From Ignavibacteria bacterium (lineage in GTDB: Bacteria > Bacteroidota > Ignavibacteria > Kapaibacteriales > UBA4661): 64,000 nt of DNA. The notes under the pieces are model-generated. The model searched no databases and had not been told where the DNA came from. It saw nothing but the letters and a program-made list of their open reading frames with translations. Positions 6,482 through 16,136 of the stretch are shown here, in pieces (the stretch's first letter is position 1; each line of letters begins with the position of its first letter). The stretch covers positions 62,001 to 126,000 of the forward strand of contig JACVZY010000110.1 in NCBI GenBank assembly GCA_014654705.1, in the 5' to 3' direction. Both the position numbers and the translations under genes were made by a program.

Positions 6482-8572
6482 TTACGGCTCTTTGATGCTG
6501 GCTCTGAAGAATGACAACACCCCCACGCCGCGCTTGGTAACGAGCCATGGTCCGTCATAAACCACCGCAGTGGCGGGATAAAATTTGTTTGGAATATACG
6601 AAATACGTTCAGCACGAATACCTTCGCGCAAGCGGACGCGCACAAGATTACTTCCCTGCGCTTCTACGCTCTCAACCCAGCCATGAGCATCCAGAACAGA
6701 CTTATTTCCTTCTTGCAAGCGTCCATCAATCTGAAAAGCATCCTTCAGAAAATACGATACGCCTTTGACAATCAGGGAGTCGGCAGAACTCGTGATATGG
6801 CTGGCGGAAGGCGCAAACTCTAAAAGCACAGTTCGCCGCGCAGAATCCACAAAGGATGCTTGGCGCAGGCTTGGTGAGCTAATATCGACCGTATCAGTTC
6901 CACCGTAAAAATCTCGTTCCGCGAGGCGAAAGAGTTGCCCGGCAAGCTGCTCGTAGCCTTGCTGAGAAAAATGACAACCATCATAGCCCTGCACTGCGTT
7001 TGCAGCGAACACCTCTACATTCGGCAGAAACTCCGGCAGACGGCGCTGCTCTTCACGAATATCACTTTGGTCAAGGTCATTACAAGAGTTTGGACGTATC
7101 TGCACGACATAGAGACGTTGTACTGCAGGGTAATCCAGCTTCCACGCGCGATAAAGCGCAGCAAATTTTCCGGCATACCCTAAGCCTGCATTTGATTCAC
7201 CTTGATACCACACAACACCGCGAATATGTTTTGCCAAGCCGGACTGACGAGCCAAATTGAGCGTGTAATCATAGATTCCTTGCGGCGGAAATCGGCGCAT
7301 TGGCAGGTGCGCCTCAATGCTTGCACCGTTCACTGCCCCATGAATAACGCATATTGGAATACTATGCGCTTCCGCAATTTGCCGCACCAATTCGCCGCCC
7401 AATCCACCAATATGCCCCAACGTTCCGGGAAGGTTGTTGCTGGCTGTCATTGGCTGCCACCACGCATTGTTATTGTCATTGTTGTATGTTCGTAAAAACT
7501 CTTCTTTGGGCGAAGAAGGGACATTGCCCAGAACTATATTGGACTGCCCTGCAAGTAAAAATACATCACCAGCAACCAAGCTATCTCGCTGCGCCACAAT
7601 ACTATCTGCGCCGTTTCTGAAGCGCACACCAAGCGTTAAACCATACTCGACGCACTCTGCTTTTAGACGAAGTGTTAGGGCAAAACGGGCTGGAGAGGTT
7701 GACAATACTTTCTTTGACCGAGACGAATTTTTTGGTGAAGTCTGCACCGAAATGCTGCTCGGTGCGTACACAAGCGGCATAGAAACTCGTTGTACCGCAA
7801 CTCCTTTTCGCAGTAATATCGCATATACGGAATCAATCTCTTTGCGATTGACAGTCCCAGAAAGCAGTACCGATGCAGAATCATGTTCATCACGTGCAAA
7901 AAACTGAAAGTTCTGTGGAAACGTAATATCCGGTACAACTGCATTATTTGCGCAGTAACGGTCGAAAACTTCTTTTGCCTTCGTATCGCTCAATATCTGT
8001 GCTTTACGGCAATCTTCACACCCCGCATCACGCCGCCCCACACCGATTTGCGCCAAAGCGCGATACACATACAACGCTCCATTTTGACGGAGCTGATTTT
8101 TATAGAGTGAGCGAGCGAATAAACTGTCGGCTCGCACATACTGCCCCGCTGCAAGGGCAAACATCCCATTAAACGAATCATTTTCTAGGGGAGTTCTCAG
8201 AATACTTGGCGGAGGATTTTGAACGATGCTCTTACGCAAGCGCAAAGCAACACTCATATCTTCAAATGCCGCATGGTAGTCTTCCATACCAAATGCAACC
8301 ATGGAGCGCATAAAATATGCATCAGCATACCGCGGCACAAGAGCAATGACCATAGAAAAATCTTCTCTCGCCGCACGGTAGTTACTACCCATACCGCCGG
8401 ATTGCTGTTCAATCGCAGTCCGTATGTTAGCAATAGCTCGTTGCCAGTACATTTCAGCCTCTTGCATTTGCGTAGGTTTGACGCGCTGAGCTTTGGCAGA
8501 GGACAATGGTAGTAGAACTGCAATAACAACACAAATCATTCGCATTGATACACACACCTTTGGTAGAGTCAT
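6482..8572 (-). CDS. Sialate O-acetylesterase-like SGNH hydrolase with N-terminal TPR region
   Basis: A secreted 696-aa protein. A signal peptide (MRMICVVIAVLLPLSSAKAQ) begins at codon 10, so translation may start there (8545) rather than at 8572. Residues about 30-200 form TPR-like helical pairs (AREDFSMVIALVPRYADAYF). The C-terminal half has the SASA-family blocks: LLAGQSN with the nucleophile Ser, VVWYQGESNAG, and DGCHFSQQGYEQLA supplying the Asp/His of the triad. Such enzymes remove O-acetyl groups from sialic acids or other sugars. Its start codon overlaps the stop of the upstream KdpD-like gene (TAATG), implying translational coupling. The TPR fusion is less common and may mediate complex formation. 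Confidence 0.85.
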   Translation of the reverse strand: MTLPKVCVSMRMICVVIAVLLPLSSAKAQRVKPTQMQEAEMYWQRAIANIRTAIEQQSGGMGSNYRAAREDFSMVIALVPRYADAYFMRSMVAFGMEDYHAAFEDMSVALRLRKSIVQNPPPSILRTPLENDSFNGMFALAAGQYVRADSLFARSLYKNQLRQNGALYVYRALAQIGVGRRDAGCEDCRKAQILSDTKAKEVFDRYCANNAVVPDITFPQNFQFFARDEHDSASVLLSGTVNRKEIDSVYAILLRKGVAVQRVSMPLVYAPSSISVQTSPKNSSRSKKVLSTSPARFALTLRLKAECVEYGLTLGVRFRNGADSIVAQRDSLVAGDVFLLAGQSNIVLGNVPSSPKEEFLRTYNNDNNNAWWQPMTASNNLPGTLGHIGGLGGELVRQIAEAHSIPICVIHGAVNGASIEAHLPMRRFPPQGIYDYTLNLARQSGLAKHIRGVVWYQGESNAGLGYAGKFAALYRAWKLDYPAVQRLYVVQIRPNSCNDLDQSDIREEQRRLPEFLPNVEVFAANAVQGYDGCHFSQQGYEQLAGQLFRLAERDFYGGTDTVDISSPSLRQASFVDSARRTVLLEFAPSASHITSSADSLIVKGVSYFLKDAFQIDGRLQEGNKSVLDAHGWVESVEAQGSNLVRVRLREGIRAERISYIPNKFYPATAVVYDGPWLVTKRGVGVLSFFRASIKEP

Positions 8573-11469
8573 TATGCCTCCGCACTTTCTAGCGGCATAT
8601 CCCGCATGGGCAGAGTGATAACAAATTTCAAACCGCCTTGTTTGCGGTTTTCAGCCACGATAGAGCCTTCGTGAGCGTCAATAATACCTTTTGTTACCGC
8701 CAAGCCAAAACTTGTACCTTCTGTTTCTGTGCCGGGTGTACGATAGAATTTGTCAAAAATCTGCCCCAAAGCATCGCTGGGTAATCCGGGTCCGCCATCA
8801 GCAATCACAAGGCGCATCTCTGCTTTTATGTCTTTTTTCTTACCGATATAGGGCTGCTTCGAGACGACAATTTTAATGGGCGTTTCTTGAGACGCGTGCT
8901 CGGCAGCATTTTGCAAGATATTCACGAGCGCTTGTTCCATCAGAACAAAATCCATTTCGACGCGCGGAAAATCTATCGGAATTTCAACGTTGACAATGTG
9001 ATCCGACAACTCCCGTCTCAGCCGCGCCATGACGACCCCTACAAGATCACTCACCTCGCACCATTCTGTGTGGAGATTGATGTCGTCTCCATCCACACGG
9101 GTAATATCCACCAGATTTTCGACGAGATGATTCAGTCTGGAAGAGGCTTTCCGAAGGCTTTCCGCTAGTTTAGCGCGTGATTCCTTGTCGTCAGCAAGGT
9201 CTTCGTCTGCGAGACTGGAAGCAGCGAGACTAATCTCAGCAAGTGGCTTGCGGATGTCGTAGGAAATAGAATTCAGAACCGTCGTGTGCAAGCGCTCTGC
9301 CTCTTCGCTTAATTGTGTTTTTTGAGCCTCCTCGTTCAGTATTTCGCGCTCTAGCGCCGATGAAATCTGGCTTACAAAGTTTTCTAACAATGTCTTTTGG
9401 TCAAGCGGAAATATTGCCGCCTGAAGACGAACTCCCATAACGCCGAATTGCTCTCGGGGCGATGAAAGTGGTGTGTAGTAAAATTCTGAATTCGGAAGCG
9501 TCGAAGTAAAGCGCCCTGCGGGCTTTTGGTTCCCAAAGACCCACGCAGCATTGGTGTACTCCTTGTCTTGAATATCCTCGTCCAGCCGCGCTGTGCTTGA
9601 TTCGTGAAGAGCATTGTCCAAAAGGTCGCCGTCATGCTGCACAAAAAAAGCCACTTCCGCCCGGAACGTTCTCCCGATGTGGACGACCGCTTTACGCAGT
9701 ACCTCATCTTTTGTTCCGGCAGCAGCAAGGTCTTTTGCCAGATGATAAAGTGCTGAAGTGCGCTCCTCCCGGTATCGCACGGCTCGTTCCTGCGTTTTGG
9801 CGCGATTCGTCAGTACGGCGGTAATGACCGAAATCACGAAGTACATTCCGAACATAATACCATCGGCGGTGGAGGCAATCGAAAATGAAAACCTTGGCGG
9901 AATGTACAGAAAATTCCACAAGAGACCACTAATGAAGCCCGCAAGCAAGACAGGTCCACGACCGAAATAGAGTGCAAGAAGAGTCGTGGTAGAAAGCAAA
10001 ATCATGCCGTCGCTTTGGTAGCCCACAAACTGCGGCAAAAGCGACGCTAAGCCCGCAACAGCGCTGGCGATGCACACCGCAACAATGTATTCTTTGGGCG
10101 AGGAGCGAAAGCGTGAAAATTCACTCGGAGCAAAGGTTTTGCGCTTCTCCGGCGCTGCTTCTTCCACGCGGATAGCATAGACATCTATCGTACCACTTTC
10201 TTCTATCAGCCTGTCAATAAACGTTTTTGATGAACCTTTGAAAAATGTCACTACCCGCTTCCAGAGCGACTGTTGCGGCTCTGCAAACGGCTTGCCAACT
10301 ATAATTTGCGACACATTGTTTTGCTTTGCCGCACGGACAATACCGCTTACCAAATCATCATCCACAGTCGAAATAATCTCTGCACCCAGTTCTCGCGCCA
10401 AGATAAGATTTTCGGAGAGACGCGTACGGGCACTGTCGCTCATTTGTGCGGAATTTTCGACGCTGACAGCAATCCAGGGTGCGTCCATAGAGTAGGCAAG
10501 ACGGCGCGTCCAGCGTACAAGCGCCTTCGAGTAGGGACTAGGACCAACCGCCACCATCAGACGCTCCCCGGCTTTCCACGTCTCGGCGATATGCTGTTCT
10601 TCCATGTAATCGCGCAACTCCTGATCAACACGCTCCGAAGCAAGACGCAGAGCCATTTCACGTAGCGCCATCAAGTTTCCTTTGCGAAAGGTCGTATTGG
10701 CGGCATGGTTGATAGCCTCGGGATTGGAGAGGGGAATAATTTTACCTTCAGCGAGGCGCTTCAAGAGCTCATCGGGGGCAATATCAATCAATTCAATTTC
10801 ATCTGCTTCTTCTAAAAGCGAGTCCGGCACGGTATTGCTGACCGCTATGCCGGTAATCTGGCGCACAGTATCTATGCGGCTTTCGAGGTTACTGACATTC
10901 AACGTCGTAAACACGTTGATTCCATTATCCAGCAGTTCCCGCACATCCTCCGAGCGCATCAGATGCCGCGCACCTTCTGCGTTTTTATGCGCTAAGTCAT
11001 CGACAATAACAATGTCGGGCTTGCGCTCCAGCACTAGGTCAATATCTATTTCATCACTTGCTTTAGTATCGCCGCTCTTGGCATCAGCAATCTTGCCACT
11101 TTTGGAAATATATTCTAAATCGCCCAAGAGCGCATCTGTTTCGGGATGAAGATTCATCTCCAGACTGGCGACGACAACAATTTTCCCCTCACGCTTGCGT
11201 TCGTGCGCTTCGTGGAGCATGGCGTACGTTTTACCAACACCATCGCACATTCCAAAAAAGATTTTCAGTTTGCCGCGCCGCTCCTCTGCATCATCTCGTT
11301 GGAGTTGTTCAAAAACTTCTGCGGGCGTTGCAGCAAGTGGTGACGGCAAAGAGTCCTCGAAATCATCACCCTTGGCAAGTGATGAGGTGGGAAGAGACGT
11401 GTCGGCAGATGACGTATTTGAACTGACCATAGTAGGGACGAATCCGTAATGGTAACGCTTCAGAAGCAC
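8572..11469 (-). CDS. KdpD-like sensor protein with Tyr replacing the phosphoacceptor His
   Basis: Membrane sensor with full KdpD architecture (965 aa). The N-terminal KdpD domain has Walker A FGMCDGVGKTYAML (about 72-86) and IVIVDDLAHKN. A universal-stress-like domain (about 305-445) follows, then four membrane helices (DUF4118, about 460-570), a GAF-like region, a dimerization helix and a HATPase. The H-box reads NSISYDIRKPL where E. coli KdpD has ALSHDLRTPL: the phosphorylated His is Tyr737 (codon 9261-9259) and the TP Thr is Lys. The ATP-binding motifs look intact (NILQNAAEH, DGGPGLP, GTSFGLAV). No kdpE or kdpFABC is nearby. It is probably not an autokinase by the usual route and may act as a ligand-binding or scaffold protein. 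An internal ATG at 11430 is an alternative start. Confidence 0.88.
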   Translation of the reverse strand: MLLKRYHYGFVPTMVSSNTSSADTSLPTSSLAKGDDFEDSLPSPLAATPAEVFEQLQRDDAEERRGKLKIFFGMCDGVGKTYAMLHEAHERKREGKIVVVASLEMNLHPETDALLGDLEYISKSGKIADAKSGDTKASDEIDIDLVLERKPDIVIVDDLAHKNAEGARHLMRSEDVRELLDNGINVFTTLNVSNLESRIDTVRQITGIAVSNTVPDSLLEEADEIELIDIAPDELLKRLAEGKIIPLSNPEAINHAANTTFRKGNLMALREMALRLASERVDQELRDYMEEQHIAETWKAGERLMVAVGPSPYSKALVRWTRRLAYSMDAPWIAVSVENSAQMSDSARTRLSENLILARELGAEIISTVDDDLVSGIVRAAKQNNVSQIIVGKPFAEPQQSLWKRVVTFFKGSSKTFIDRLIEESGTIDVYAIRVEEAAPEKRKTFAPSEFSRFRSSPKEYIVAVCIASAVAGLASLLPQFVGYQSDGMILLSTTTLLALYFGRGPVLLAGFISGLLWNFLYIPPRFSFSIASTADGIMFGMYFVISVITAVLTNRAKTQERAVRYREERTSALYHLAKDLAAAGTKDEVLRKAVVHIGRTFRAEVAFFVQHDGDLLDNALHESSTARLDEDIQDKEYTNAAWVFGNQKPAGRFTSTLPNSEFYYTPLSSPREQFGVMGVRLQAAIFPLDQKTLLENFVSQISSALEREILNEEAQKTQLSEEAERLHTTVLNSISYDIRKPLAEISLAASSLADEDLADDKESRAKLAESLRKASSRLNHLVENLVDITRVDGDDINLHTEWCEVSDLVGVVMARLRRELSDHIVNVEIPIDFPRVEMDFVLMEQALVNILQNAAEHASQETPIKIVVSKQPYIGKKKDIKAEMRLVIADGGPGLPSDALGQIFDKFYRTPGTETEGTSFGLAVTKGIIDAHEGSIVAENRKQGGLKFVITLPMRDMPLESAEA

Positions 11470-11795
11470 GGCTCAGAGGCAGCGCAGAGGCAAGAGTTAC
11501 CGTAAAATAGTTTTCATTGCAAGCGTAAAATACCTCTATTTTCGATTTTTAACAAGATGTAGAAATAGTCCCTTCTTTTGCTATGGTTCTAGCTATCGCT
11601 CTAAAGGATTCCTAAGCAACTCTCTATAGAAAAATCATATTTCATAAACAAAGTAATTTGTAAGAATGTGGATAATTCGCTAAATTACAATGTATCAATT
11701 TTTTAGAGCTTTTCAAAAGCAGTCCTACCTATCACACCAGTATCTGCTCACAATTTAATATCATACTTTCCTACACCTTGTCTTTGGAGGCAACA
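11470..11795. other. Intergenic region between divergent KdpD-like and marR genes
   Basis: A 326-bp AT-rich stretch with no convincing ORF. It must hold the promoters of both divergent genes. I see a near-match to a -7 element for marR (TACTTTCC at 11764-11771) and an inverted pair TTGTAA/TTACAA (11658-11663 and 11685-11690) that could be an operator. Neither is strong. Confidence 0.35.
11786..11790 (+). promoter_or_regulatory. Shine-Dalgarno site fixing the marR start
   Basis: GGAGG lies 5 nt before ATG 11796. It selects this start over the in-frame TTG at 11778. Confidence 0.75.
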
Positions 11796-12443
11796 ATGCC
11801 CACGCTACATCCCTCTTCGACAATCTTTAATCCGCACTACAACTCTATCAATACCACGAGTAAAATTGTCGTGGCGTTTGAGCGTATCTCCGAAGCCTTC
11901 CGTGTTATGCTTTGGCAGGCAAGCAAAAGCACAGGATTATCGCCCCTCCAAATCCAAATACTGACCTTCTTGTCGTTCCATCCTCCGGCACAGCGCAAGG
12001 TGTCGTATCTGGCACAAGAATTTAATATGACAAAGCCTACGGTCAGTGATGCGATTAAGTCGCTCGAAGAAAAGGGACTGATCGCAAAGGTTACGGAAAC
12101 AAATGATACGAGGAGCTACACCATAAACCTCACCGCGAAGGGTGATATGCTATCACAAGAAACCTCGCTTTTTGCTCAAAAATTCAACGAAGCGCTTGGC
12201 GGAATGCCGCCTATTGAGCAGGAATTTCTTTTAGAACATCTTGTGTCTATTATTTACTCATTTCATAAAGAAGGAATCCTAACTATACAGCGCACTTGCT
12301 TTACGTGCGCCTTCCACACTCGCAATACCATGAATCTCTCCTCTAGCACTGATTCTCACTGCCGTCTTCTTGACCAGAATCTCCACTTTTCTGATATTCG
12401 CCTGGACTGCCCGCACCACGAGCTAAAAGGAGGATTGGCATGA
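11796..12443 (+). CDS. MarR-family transcriptional regulator with C-terminal Cys/His cluster
   Basis: A 215-aa winged-helix repressor-type regulator. The helix-turn-helix runs through QRKVSYLAQEFNMTKPTVSD, followed by the wing (VTETNDTRSYTINLT). MarR proteins usually end soon after the dimerization helix; this one has about 55 extra residues with CFTCAFH, HCRLL and LDCPHH, a pattern that could bind zinc or an Fe-S cluster, or act as a redox switch. The same kind of tail is known in other Bacteroidetes MarR proteins. The stop overlaps the start of the M1 aminopeptidase gene (ATGA), so the two are translationally coupled. The start follows from the GGAGG site. Confidence 0.88.
   Translation: MPTLHPSSTIFNPHYNSINTTSKIVVAFERISEAFRVMLWQASKSTGLSPLQIQILTFLSFHPPAQRKVSYLAQEFNMTKPTVSDAIKSLEEKGLIAKVTETNDTRSYTINLTAKGDMLSQETSLFAQKFNEALGGMPPIEQEFLLEHLVSIIYSFHKEGILTIQRTCFTCAFHTRNTMNLSSSTDSHCRLLDQNLHFSDIRLDCPHHELKGGLA
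12428..12433 (+). promoter_or_regulatory. Shine-Dalgarno site for the M1 aminopeptidase
   Basis: AGGAGG ends 6 nt before ATG 12440, inside the last codons of marR. It supports the overlapping ATGA start over the internal ATG at 12470. Confidence 0.7.
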
Positions 12444-14777: not shown

Positions 14778-16013
14778 CTAAAACCTGAATCCACCGCTTA
14801 TTCCTATCCATGCAGAGCCGATACCCGAAGCACCGGATGCTGCCGGAACACGCCACGATGCCGGAAACAACTCTAGCTGTGAAGCGGGATTGTAAGAAGC
14901 CCAATTAAGCGTGGGTCCGATAAATACCGAGAAATTTTTTGCGAATTCATGCCCATACAAAAGCCGCACACGTCCAATGCCTGCATATCCAGCCCACGTC
15001 CGAATGTTGACCCCTTCCATAACGCCCTCTCCATGTAGGCTGATGTCCAGATAATCACGCCCGGAAAAGTAAATCTGCGTTCCCAAGCCATATCCAAAAG
15101 ACCACAGCGTTACGCCGTTGAATGGCTGCAAGCCAACAGTAAGCAGATTGTAGAAGTTTTTATTTCCTGTCCGTAATCCCAAACGGATAAAGCGCATTTC
15201 ATCTGTCCAGAGGTCAACGTGCAAGCCGTGTGCAGCAGAGAAACTCAATAGTCCAAGCATTACGCCTTCGTTATTTTCTGCTATGTTAATAACACCAATT
15301 TGCGCACCAGTAACAGTAACAGCAGTGTTCACAATTCCTGCAATTTGTAGCCCAGTAACATTTTTCGCATGATTGCTCACGCCTGCACCCTGCACACCAT
15401 GAACATTTTCAGCAATATTCAGAACCCCGGCGCCCTGTACACCGTGCAAATCACCTGCAACGTTGACCACACCTGCCCCTTGTACTCCTTCTACTTTGCC
15501 GCCGGCAATGTTGATAATACCCGCGCCCTGCGCACCGGACAAGCCTTTTGCGGCAATGTTGAATACGCCCGCGCCTTGTGCGCCGTCAAACCTACCGCTC
15601 ACGACATTGCCAACGCCCGCACCCTGCGCCCATGAAGCATCTCCACCAACGATATTGATGACTCCTGCACCCTGCAAACCGCTCACATAATCGGTCTGAA
15701 CGTTAAAGATACCCGAGCCTTCCACGCCTTCAAGAGCATTTCCCACGCCACCGATTACATGAAGCGAAACATTAGAAACAATGCGCTTTCCAGTGCTTGC
15801 CTGTACGATATTTCCTACGGAAAGTGGTGCAACAAAACCGATATTCACCGGAACCTGTGTATATGCTTCCCGAGGGAAAAGCGTCAAGAATTGCGTTGCG
15901 GCAGTACTGACTGCAACACTACTGGTGGTGGCTGTTGTCTGCGCCTGTGTATGGGTGAAGGTACATCCAAGCGCCAAAACGAGCGCTGCTGAGAATAATA
16001 AAAGCGTTTTCAT
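14778..16013 (-). CDS. Secreted protein with about ten 15-16-residue QGAGVxN repeats
   Basis: The preferred start is ATG 16013-16011, which gives a normal signal peptide (MKTLLLFSAALVLALG, cleavage near HTQAQ); the longer frame to 16073 adds 20 unlikely residues. The middle (about residues 95-255) is a run of imperfect repeats of the form G-x-Q-G-A-G-V/I-x-N-I/V-A followed by 5-6 variable residues. The C-terminal 140 residues are beta-rich, with alternating aromatic and small residues, like a small outer-membrane barrel. The repeat pattern resembles the LA_2272-type surface repeat described from Leptospira. I infer an outer-membrane or surface location. The function is unknown. Confidence 0.75.
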   Translation of the reverse strand: MKTLLLFSAALVLALGCTFTHTQAQTTATTSSVAVSTAATQFLTLFPREAYTQVPVNIGFVAPLSVGNIVQASTGKRIVSNVSLHVIGGVGNALEGVEGSGIFNVQTDYVSGLQGAGVINIVGGDASWAQGAGVGNVVSGRFDGAQGAGVFNIAAKGLSGAQGAGIINIAGGKVEGVQGAGVVNVAGDLHGVQGAGVLNIAENVHGVQGAGVSNHAKNVTGLQIAGIVNTAVTVTGAQIGVINIAENNEGVMLGLLSFSAAHGLHVDLWTDEMRFIRLGLRTGNKNFYNLLTVGLQPFNGVTLWSFGYGLGTQIYFSGRDYLDISLHGEGVMEGVNIRTWAGYAGIGRVRLLYGHEFAKNFSVFIGPTLNWASYNPASQLELFPASWRVPAASGASGIGSAWIGISGGFRF

Positions 16014-16136
16014 AGTATTGAAAAGTGAATGAGCGAAATTGTGGAAGCAGCCTCCGGTTGGCTGGCTCACCATAAACTGACTTACTATGAAAAAGCCTAT
16101 ACGCTACGTTGGGTTACAATTTTTTTTTGAATTGAC

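Follow-up and report, generated by a model that had tools for sequence, protein, structure and literature searches.

The window analysed here is a stretch of 64,000 nucleotides from an Ignavibacteria bacterium (GenBank assembly GCA_014654705.1, contig JACVZY010000110.1, positions 62,001 to 126,000 of the forward strand). On its reverse strand, a KdpD-like gene, regarded here as encoding a tandem pseudokinase, occupies 8572..11469 (-), as delimited by the ORF list, Pfam and the alignment of its orthologues. Read from the GTG at 11469, this ORF gives a product of 965 aa. The real start is probably the ATG at 11430 (residue 14) rather than this GTG, since a comparable Met is present in all six orthologous frames, being least clear in L041; residues 1-46 are of low confidence or disordered in the AlphaFold2 model. 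Pfam assigned a KdpD domain to residues 64-281 (10627..11280 (-), PF02702, consistent with mapping onto the E. coli protein), DUF4118 to 461-565 (9775..10089 (-), the membrane-spanning region, also supported by the model), GAF_3 to 587-708 (9346..9711 (-)), HisKA, the DHp domain, to 730-793 (9091..9282 (-)) and HATPase_c, the CA domain, to 843-956 (8602..8943 (-)). The protein is thus of KdpD descent and architecture, as judged from the tree and from the order of the domains identified by Pfam.

No Usp match was obtained by Pfam in the window protein, and Usp was matched in the relatives L048 and L041; the corresponding region of the window protein has an alternating strand-helix pattern in the AlphaFold2 model. 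This model, computed from the 42-row alignment A1 (42 of the 91 rows surveyed below), has a mean pLDDT of 81 and contains KdpD, Usp, helical membrane, GAF, DHp and CA parts, each folded, with their relative placement unsure at a pTM of 0.44. Its best structure match was the N-domain of P. syringae KdpD (2r8r), and the closest named sequence records were Kapabacteria/Ignavibacteria metagenome assemblies.

A MarR-type regulator identified by Pfam is encoded divergently at 11796..12443 (+). Its ORF is listed from TTG at 11778, and translation probably begins instead at the ATG at 11796, just after a GGAGG. The divergent arrangement recurs at all six loci with enough flank (the window, L039, L041, L042, L044 and L046), the L040 contig ending too early, and an M1 peptidase gene lies beyond the regulator at the conserved loci. 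The regulator itself contains a C-terminal Cys/His pattern (C-x2-C, C, DCPH) that is invariant in the six orthologues and is perhaps a metal or Fe-S site. Two of the loci, which form the Asn subclade described below, are the only ones with a small gene between the regulator and the KdpD-like gene, just upstream of the latter (L042:9609-10127 (-) and L044:6628-7194 (+)); its product, tested in L044, gave a weak molybdopterin-oxidoreductase Pfam match under the cut-off. A DnaA-box-like TTATCCACA at 11667-11675 in the divergent region seemed conserved by eye and was discarded, the window having 2 matches against 1.3 expected by chance.

On the opposite flank, the window, L041, L042 and L044 have in common genes for a metallo-beta-lactamase-like protein, a DAO oxidoreductase and an M14 peptidase, the first of which comes immediately after the KdpD-like gene in the latter three loci. 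A 431-aa protein with repeated GAQGAG-type motifs, encoded at 14778-16073 (-) in the window, is also found near the locus in L042, L044 and L046 and had no Pfam match at E<=0.001. In the window, the KdpD-like gene is followed by a SASA-type esterase gene (6482..8572 (-), Pfam). The first-pass annotation, made from the sequence of the window alone, had described the stop as overlapping the start of a TPR-esterase gene; the overlap is there, one base long (TAATG), but the domain found is SASA, and no TPR was found at E<=0.001. The association that this arrangement implied does not extend to the relatives. The esterase adjoins the KdpD-like gene in the window and L039, and a 91-aa piece of it is all that L040 shows where its contig ends, so that the stop/start overlap is lineage-specific and a functional link to the downstream esterase was rejected.

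The H-box of the HisKA/DHp domain reads SISYDIRKPL. In the alignment with E. coli K-12 KdpD, codon 737 (TAC, 9259..9261 (-)) places Tyr737 at the phosphoacceptor His673, and Lys741 aligns with T677 at H+4, both as the first-pass annotation had proposed. The H+4 Thr serves phosphatase action in histidine kinases. A KdpD-domain search of eight same-genus Kapabacteria genomes (G000-G007) recovered one orthologue in each of seven genomes, and none was found in G004 (86% complete). The first-pass annotation had proposed to see whether Tyr is fixed in relatives; all seven proteins lack His, and the site is Tyr in the window protein, L039, L040, L046 and L041, and Asn in L044 and L042. The H+4 residues aligned with T677 in the seven proteins are K, K, Q, Q, H, T and T.

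The wider distribution of these substitutions was surveyed through a class-wide search of 391 genomes, from which most full-length matches were aligned. The resulting 91 rows include the window protein and comprise the seven orthologues and 84 other KdpD-type rows, of which 78 extend over the H-box and 81 over Walker B; the set omits at least one full-length match (G151:C52) and most short forms of about 380-580 aa. The phosphoacceptor His is kept in 78/78 of these other rows and the Walker-B Glu of the N-terminal domain in 81/81, and both residues are absent in the same seven proteins and in none of the other rows that extend over these sites. The absence of His from all seven orthologues, set against its presence in all 78 others, is attributable neither to chance nor to sequencing error, and an error at Tyr737 was further rejected by five assemblies with Tyr and two with Asn.

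The seven genes form one clade with support of 100/100, which stays at 100 when the histidine-kinase half is left out (both with 22 rows chosen from the 91). The first alignment of the clade contained the window protein and 19 of 22 matches, one L055 row and two L056 rows being left out, and a wider tree was built by a quick method from 52 of the 91 rows, those of 850 aa or longer. In a phylum-wide protein search of 395 genomes, which scored 2 candidates per genome, the best match outside the genus among the matches listed was 47% identical. All known members of the clade come from a single genus and from draft assemblies.

The CA domain has been altered as well. The first-pass annotation considered that the HATPase motifs remain, which holds for the N box and G1, whereas the G2 box reads GTSFGL where GTGLGL is expected. 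Across the clade, GTGLGL is intact in one of the seven members and altered in six, while six members still have the second Asn of the N box and six the Asp of G1; in the G003 copy, N854, D891 and G895 are all gone and the frame is still open. Between the Tyr and Asn subclades, conservation is lowest in the DHp, with 44% identity compared with 68% in the KdpD domain and 73% in the Usp domain. This divergence implies that the two subclades may have different partners and that the function they share may reside in the N-terminal half.

Similar losses were found in the N-terminal half. The N-terminal domain of E. coli KdpD has been reported to be an atypical serine kinase acting on KdpB, which binds ATP via Walker A and W39/R190 and cannot do without either of the Walker-B residues D109 and E110, E110A abolishing KdpB phosphorylation (PMC11018627). 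In the window protein, Walker A (GMCDGVGKT) is intact, and codon 158 (10996..10998 (-)), mapped on the E. coli protein, encodes Asp in place of the catalytic Glu, giving VDDLAH for VDELAH. The earlier statement that the Walker motifs remain is hence correct for Walker A and the Walker-B Asp and misses the loss of the catalytic Glu. Within the clade, the E110 position is Asp in five proteins and Asn in two; Asp could allow some residual catalysis, with which Asn is clearly difficult to square. All seven proteins retain Walker A together with the Walker-B Asp, and likewise the adenine Arg at the R190 position. The W39 position is Tyr in 7/7, as it also is in L048 and in 11/11 other aligned rows reaching the site.

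Residues that are invariant in the other KdpD rows, scored only at columns with at least 55 non-gap non-clade rows, were lost in addition: His194 is replaced by Asn in all seven proteins, and in the THGR motif His106 is lost in six and Arg108 in five. With regard to ligands, the Usp c-di-AMP motif (A/G/C)xSxSx2N(Y/F) was described for S. aureus KdpD and derived from Firmicutes (PMC8214093); by eye, GPSPYSKA in the window protein matches the first two positions of this Firmicutes-derived motif. A diadenylate cyclase was found in 21/21 genomes.

A relative from the sister genus offers a point of comparison. L048 (G009, L048:6308-8611 (-)) groups with the pseudokinase clade at 98/95 and likewise lies outside a kdp operon, near the same metallo-beta-lactamase-like gene. 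It keeps the phosphoacceptor His and the Walker-B Glu and ends right after the DHp, without a CA domain. By alignment, histidine-kinase function appears to have been lost on both branches by different routes, and these separate losses, one of the branches being represented by a single genome, suggest an early release of the paralogue from the need for histidine-kinase function.

The neighbours examined include no kdp gene, in agreement with the first-pass annotation, and the clade gene is unlinked to kdp genes in all loci with flank. Elsewhere in the window genome, contig C40 encodes KdpA, KdpC and a canonical KdpD with an adjacent OmpR-type regulator. KdpA was found in G000, G001, G006 and G007, with the same pattern for KdpC, and genome searches found neither of them in G002, G003, G004 and G005. 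Canonical KdpD with KdpA and KdpC therefore co-occurs with the clade protein in four of the seven clade genomes, where cross-talk is possible, and in G003 and G005 (99% complete) and G002 (91%) the pseudokinase is the sole full-length KdpD, and neither KdpA nor KdpC was found.

The two kinds of copy also differ in history. By their operon copies, G006 and G007 group as sisters (84% identity), and by their pseudokinase copies they stand far apart (62%), which hints that the kdp operon may have been horizontally transferred or patchily lost in the genus; the operon KdpD rows concerned are L037, L038, L043, L045 and L049. Between G000 and G001, the pseudokinase copies are 91% identical and the operon copies 79%, and the pseudokinase copy is also the slower one in the G000-G007 and G001-G007 pairs. 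That it always evolves more slowly was not upheld, failing in three pairs involving G006.

Erosion of CA motifs in several members, most advanced in G003, might be read as a sign that the gene is a decaying pseudogene on its way out. Against this, the six other orthologous stop-to-stop frames are intact (959-1006 codons) and the locus is conserved. A count for four clade pairs with a Nei-Gojobori script gave, for L044-L042 (dS 0.95), a dN/dS of 0.051 overall, 0.067 in the DHp and 0.025 in the CA domain, far under 1 in the very domains at issue; this pair is the only one with dS <1, the high or saturated values of the other three being indicative at most. Purifying selection acts on the clade genes, and decay, largely refuted by intact frames, low dN/dS and synteny, is left with next to no credence. 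It is hardly more credible that the protein is an unusual active kinase with phosphate on His728 or Tyr737. A conserved alternative His does exist nearby, as the first-pass annotation had allowed for: codon 728 (9286..9288 (-)) is His in 7/7 clade proteins and Tyr in 69 of 78 other KdpDs, and the second N-box Asn and G1 Asp retained in six members could serve such an activity. Its placement is poor for a phosphoacceptor, which makes that role unlikely: nine residues upstream of Tyr737, it would lie about half a turn round the helix, on roughly the opposite face, some 13 A away by helix geometry. Tyr737 is itself exchanged for Asn in two proteins, the G003 copy has lost its ATP-binding motifs, G2 is altered in six of the seven, and DivL, with Tyr at the same site, has been reported to be without autokinase activity (PMC4211667).

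Among the alternatives, the most serious, though still unlikely, is that the histidine kinase alone is dead and the N-terminal domain works as a serine kinase on a new substrate, with Asp replacing the Walker-B Glu. The nucleotide-binding residues kept throughout the clade would suit this reading, as would sister L048 with its Glu kept and CA missing, and a class of KdpDs that have the serine kinase but no histidine-kinase function has been described (PMC11018627). It has to contend with the loss of the Glu (twice to Asn) and of His194 in every clade protein and of most of THGR, and with the known substrate, KdpFABC, which, going by KdpA and KdpC, appears to be absent in G002, G003 and G005. 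Histidine kinases form dimers through their DHp domains, and the protein might instead modulate canonical KdpD by pairing with it in mixed dimers or by sequestering a response regulator that both use, for which the coexistence of both proteins in four genomes and the OmpR-type regulator beside canonical kdpD in the window genome provide an opening. We consider this improbable, as the nearly complete G003 and G005 have no canonical KdpD, KdpA or KdpC and the two genes have different histories.

The best-supported reading is that the gene encodes a KdpD paralogue with both kinase activities dead or nearly so, which, on the alignments, probably acts as a non-catalytic, partner-binding sensor outside the Kdp system. 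This agrees with the sensor pseudokinase with non-canonical output of the first-pass annotation, which had overlooked the loss of the serine-kinase Glu and the decay of the CA domain. In a more specific form, about which we are evenly divided, the tandem pseudokinase would be an ATP- or ligand-gated membrane scaffold, working without phosphoryl transfer and outside potassium-pump control. The paralogue would have diverged from the KdpD of the kdp operon before the separation of this genus from a sister genus, then departed from that operon, and subsequently lost the phosphoacceptor His, the serine-kinase Walker-B Glu and, in the Tyr subclade, the H+4 Thr. Fold and membrane region were retained, and so were Walker A, the Walker-B Asp and the adenine Arg. 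The N-terminal half of the protein probably still binds ATP and perhaps a ligand, and the bound state would be passed by shape change and not by phosphoryl transfer through the dimeric DHp/CA-like half to a protein partner, as in DivL, in a role probably outside the Kdp pump. Expression of the pseudokinase may depend on the MarR-type regulator encoded divergently to it.

The protein resembles E. coli-type KdpD in the domain order KdpD-Usp-DUF4118-GAF-HisKA-HATPase and is 35-50% identical to the non-clade rows of alignment A1. It differs in having neither the phosphoacceptor His nor the Walker-B Glu and in its altered G2, and the clade differs in being unlinked to kdp genes and occurring in genomes without KdpA or KdpC. 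Caulobacter DivL, reported to carry Tyr550, to have no kinase or phosphatase activity, to bind DivK~P and to control CckA (PMC4211667, PMC5361649), shares with the window protein and four relatives a Tyr at the phosphoacceptor of a HisKA/HATPase core, the two other relatives having Asn. A Y550H exchange in DivL is reported to have restored activity solely when the partner protein was there (PMC4211667). The DivL structure 4q20 was matched by sequence and came at rank 31 by fold, among many ordinary kinase cores. Unlike the window protein with its KdpD/Usp/GAF inputs, DivL has PAS inputs and belongs to a different lineage, and the loss of a second, N-terminal kinase site is likewise peculiar to the window protein.

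Closer in descent are the KdpD variants without histidine-kinase output, either KdpD/Usp-only or DHpCA-truncated, to which L048 conforms; as reported, they keep the serine-kinase domain in species with an annotated pump, whereas the present clade has lost the Glu and includes genomes that seem to have no pump (PMC11018627). That survey is described as covering pump-annotated species only and, where several copies are present, the full-length copy only, a design under which the clade could hardly have appeared (PMC11018627). Pseudo-histidine kinases and KdpDs without histidine-kinase function are, according to these sources, already known (PMC5361649, PMC11018627), and about 1% of histidine kinases are stated to have another residue in place of the His (PMC5361649). 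In the literature searched, mostly titles and listings, no report of a KdpD with both active sites lost was found.

That KdpD combines two kinases in a single polypeptide was reported only recently (PMC11018627). The present clade may be taken as a natural separation-of-function experiment, in which both active sites were dropped while the body of the protein stayed under purifying selection and the pump is seemingly absent in some genomes. It adds to the few bacterial pseudo-histidine kinases, few of which have been studied, and suggests that a sensor of the KdpD/Usp/GAF type can serve a function that has nothing to do with phosphorylation.
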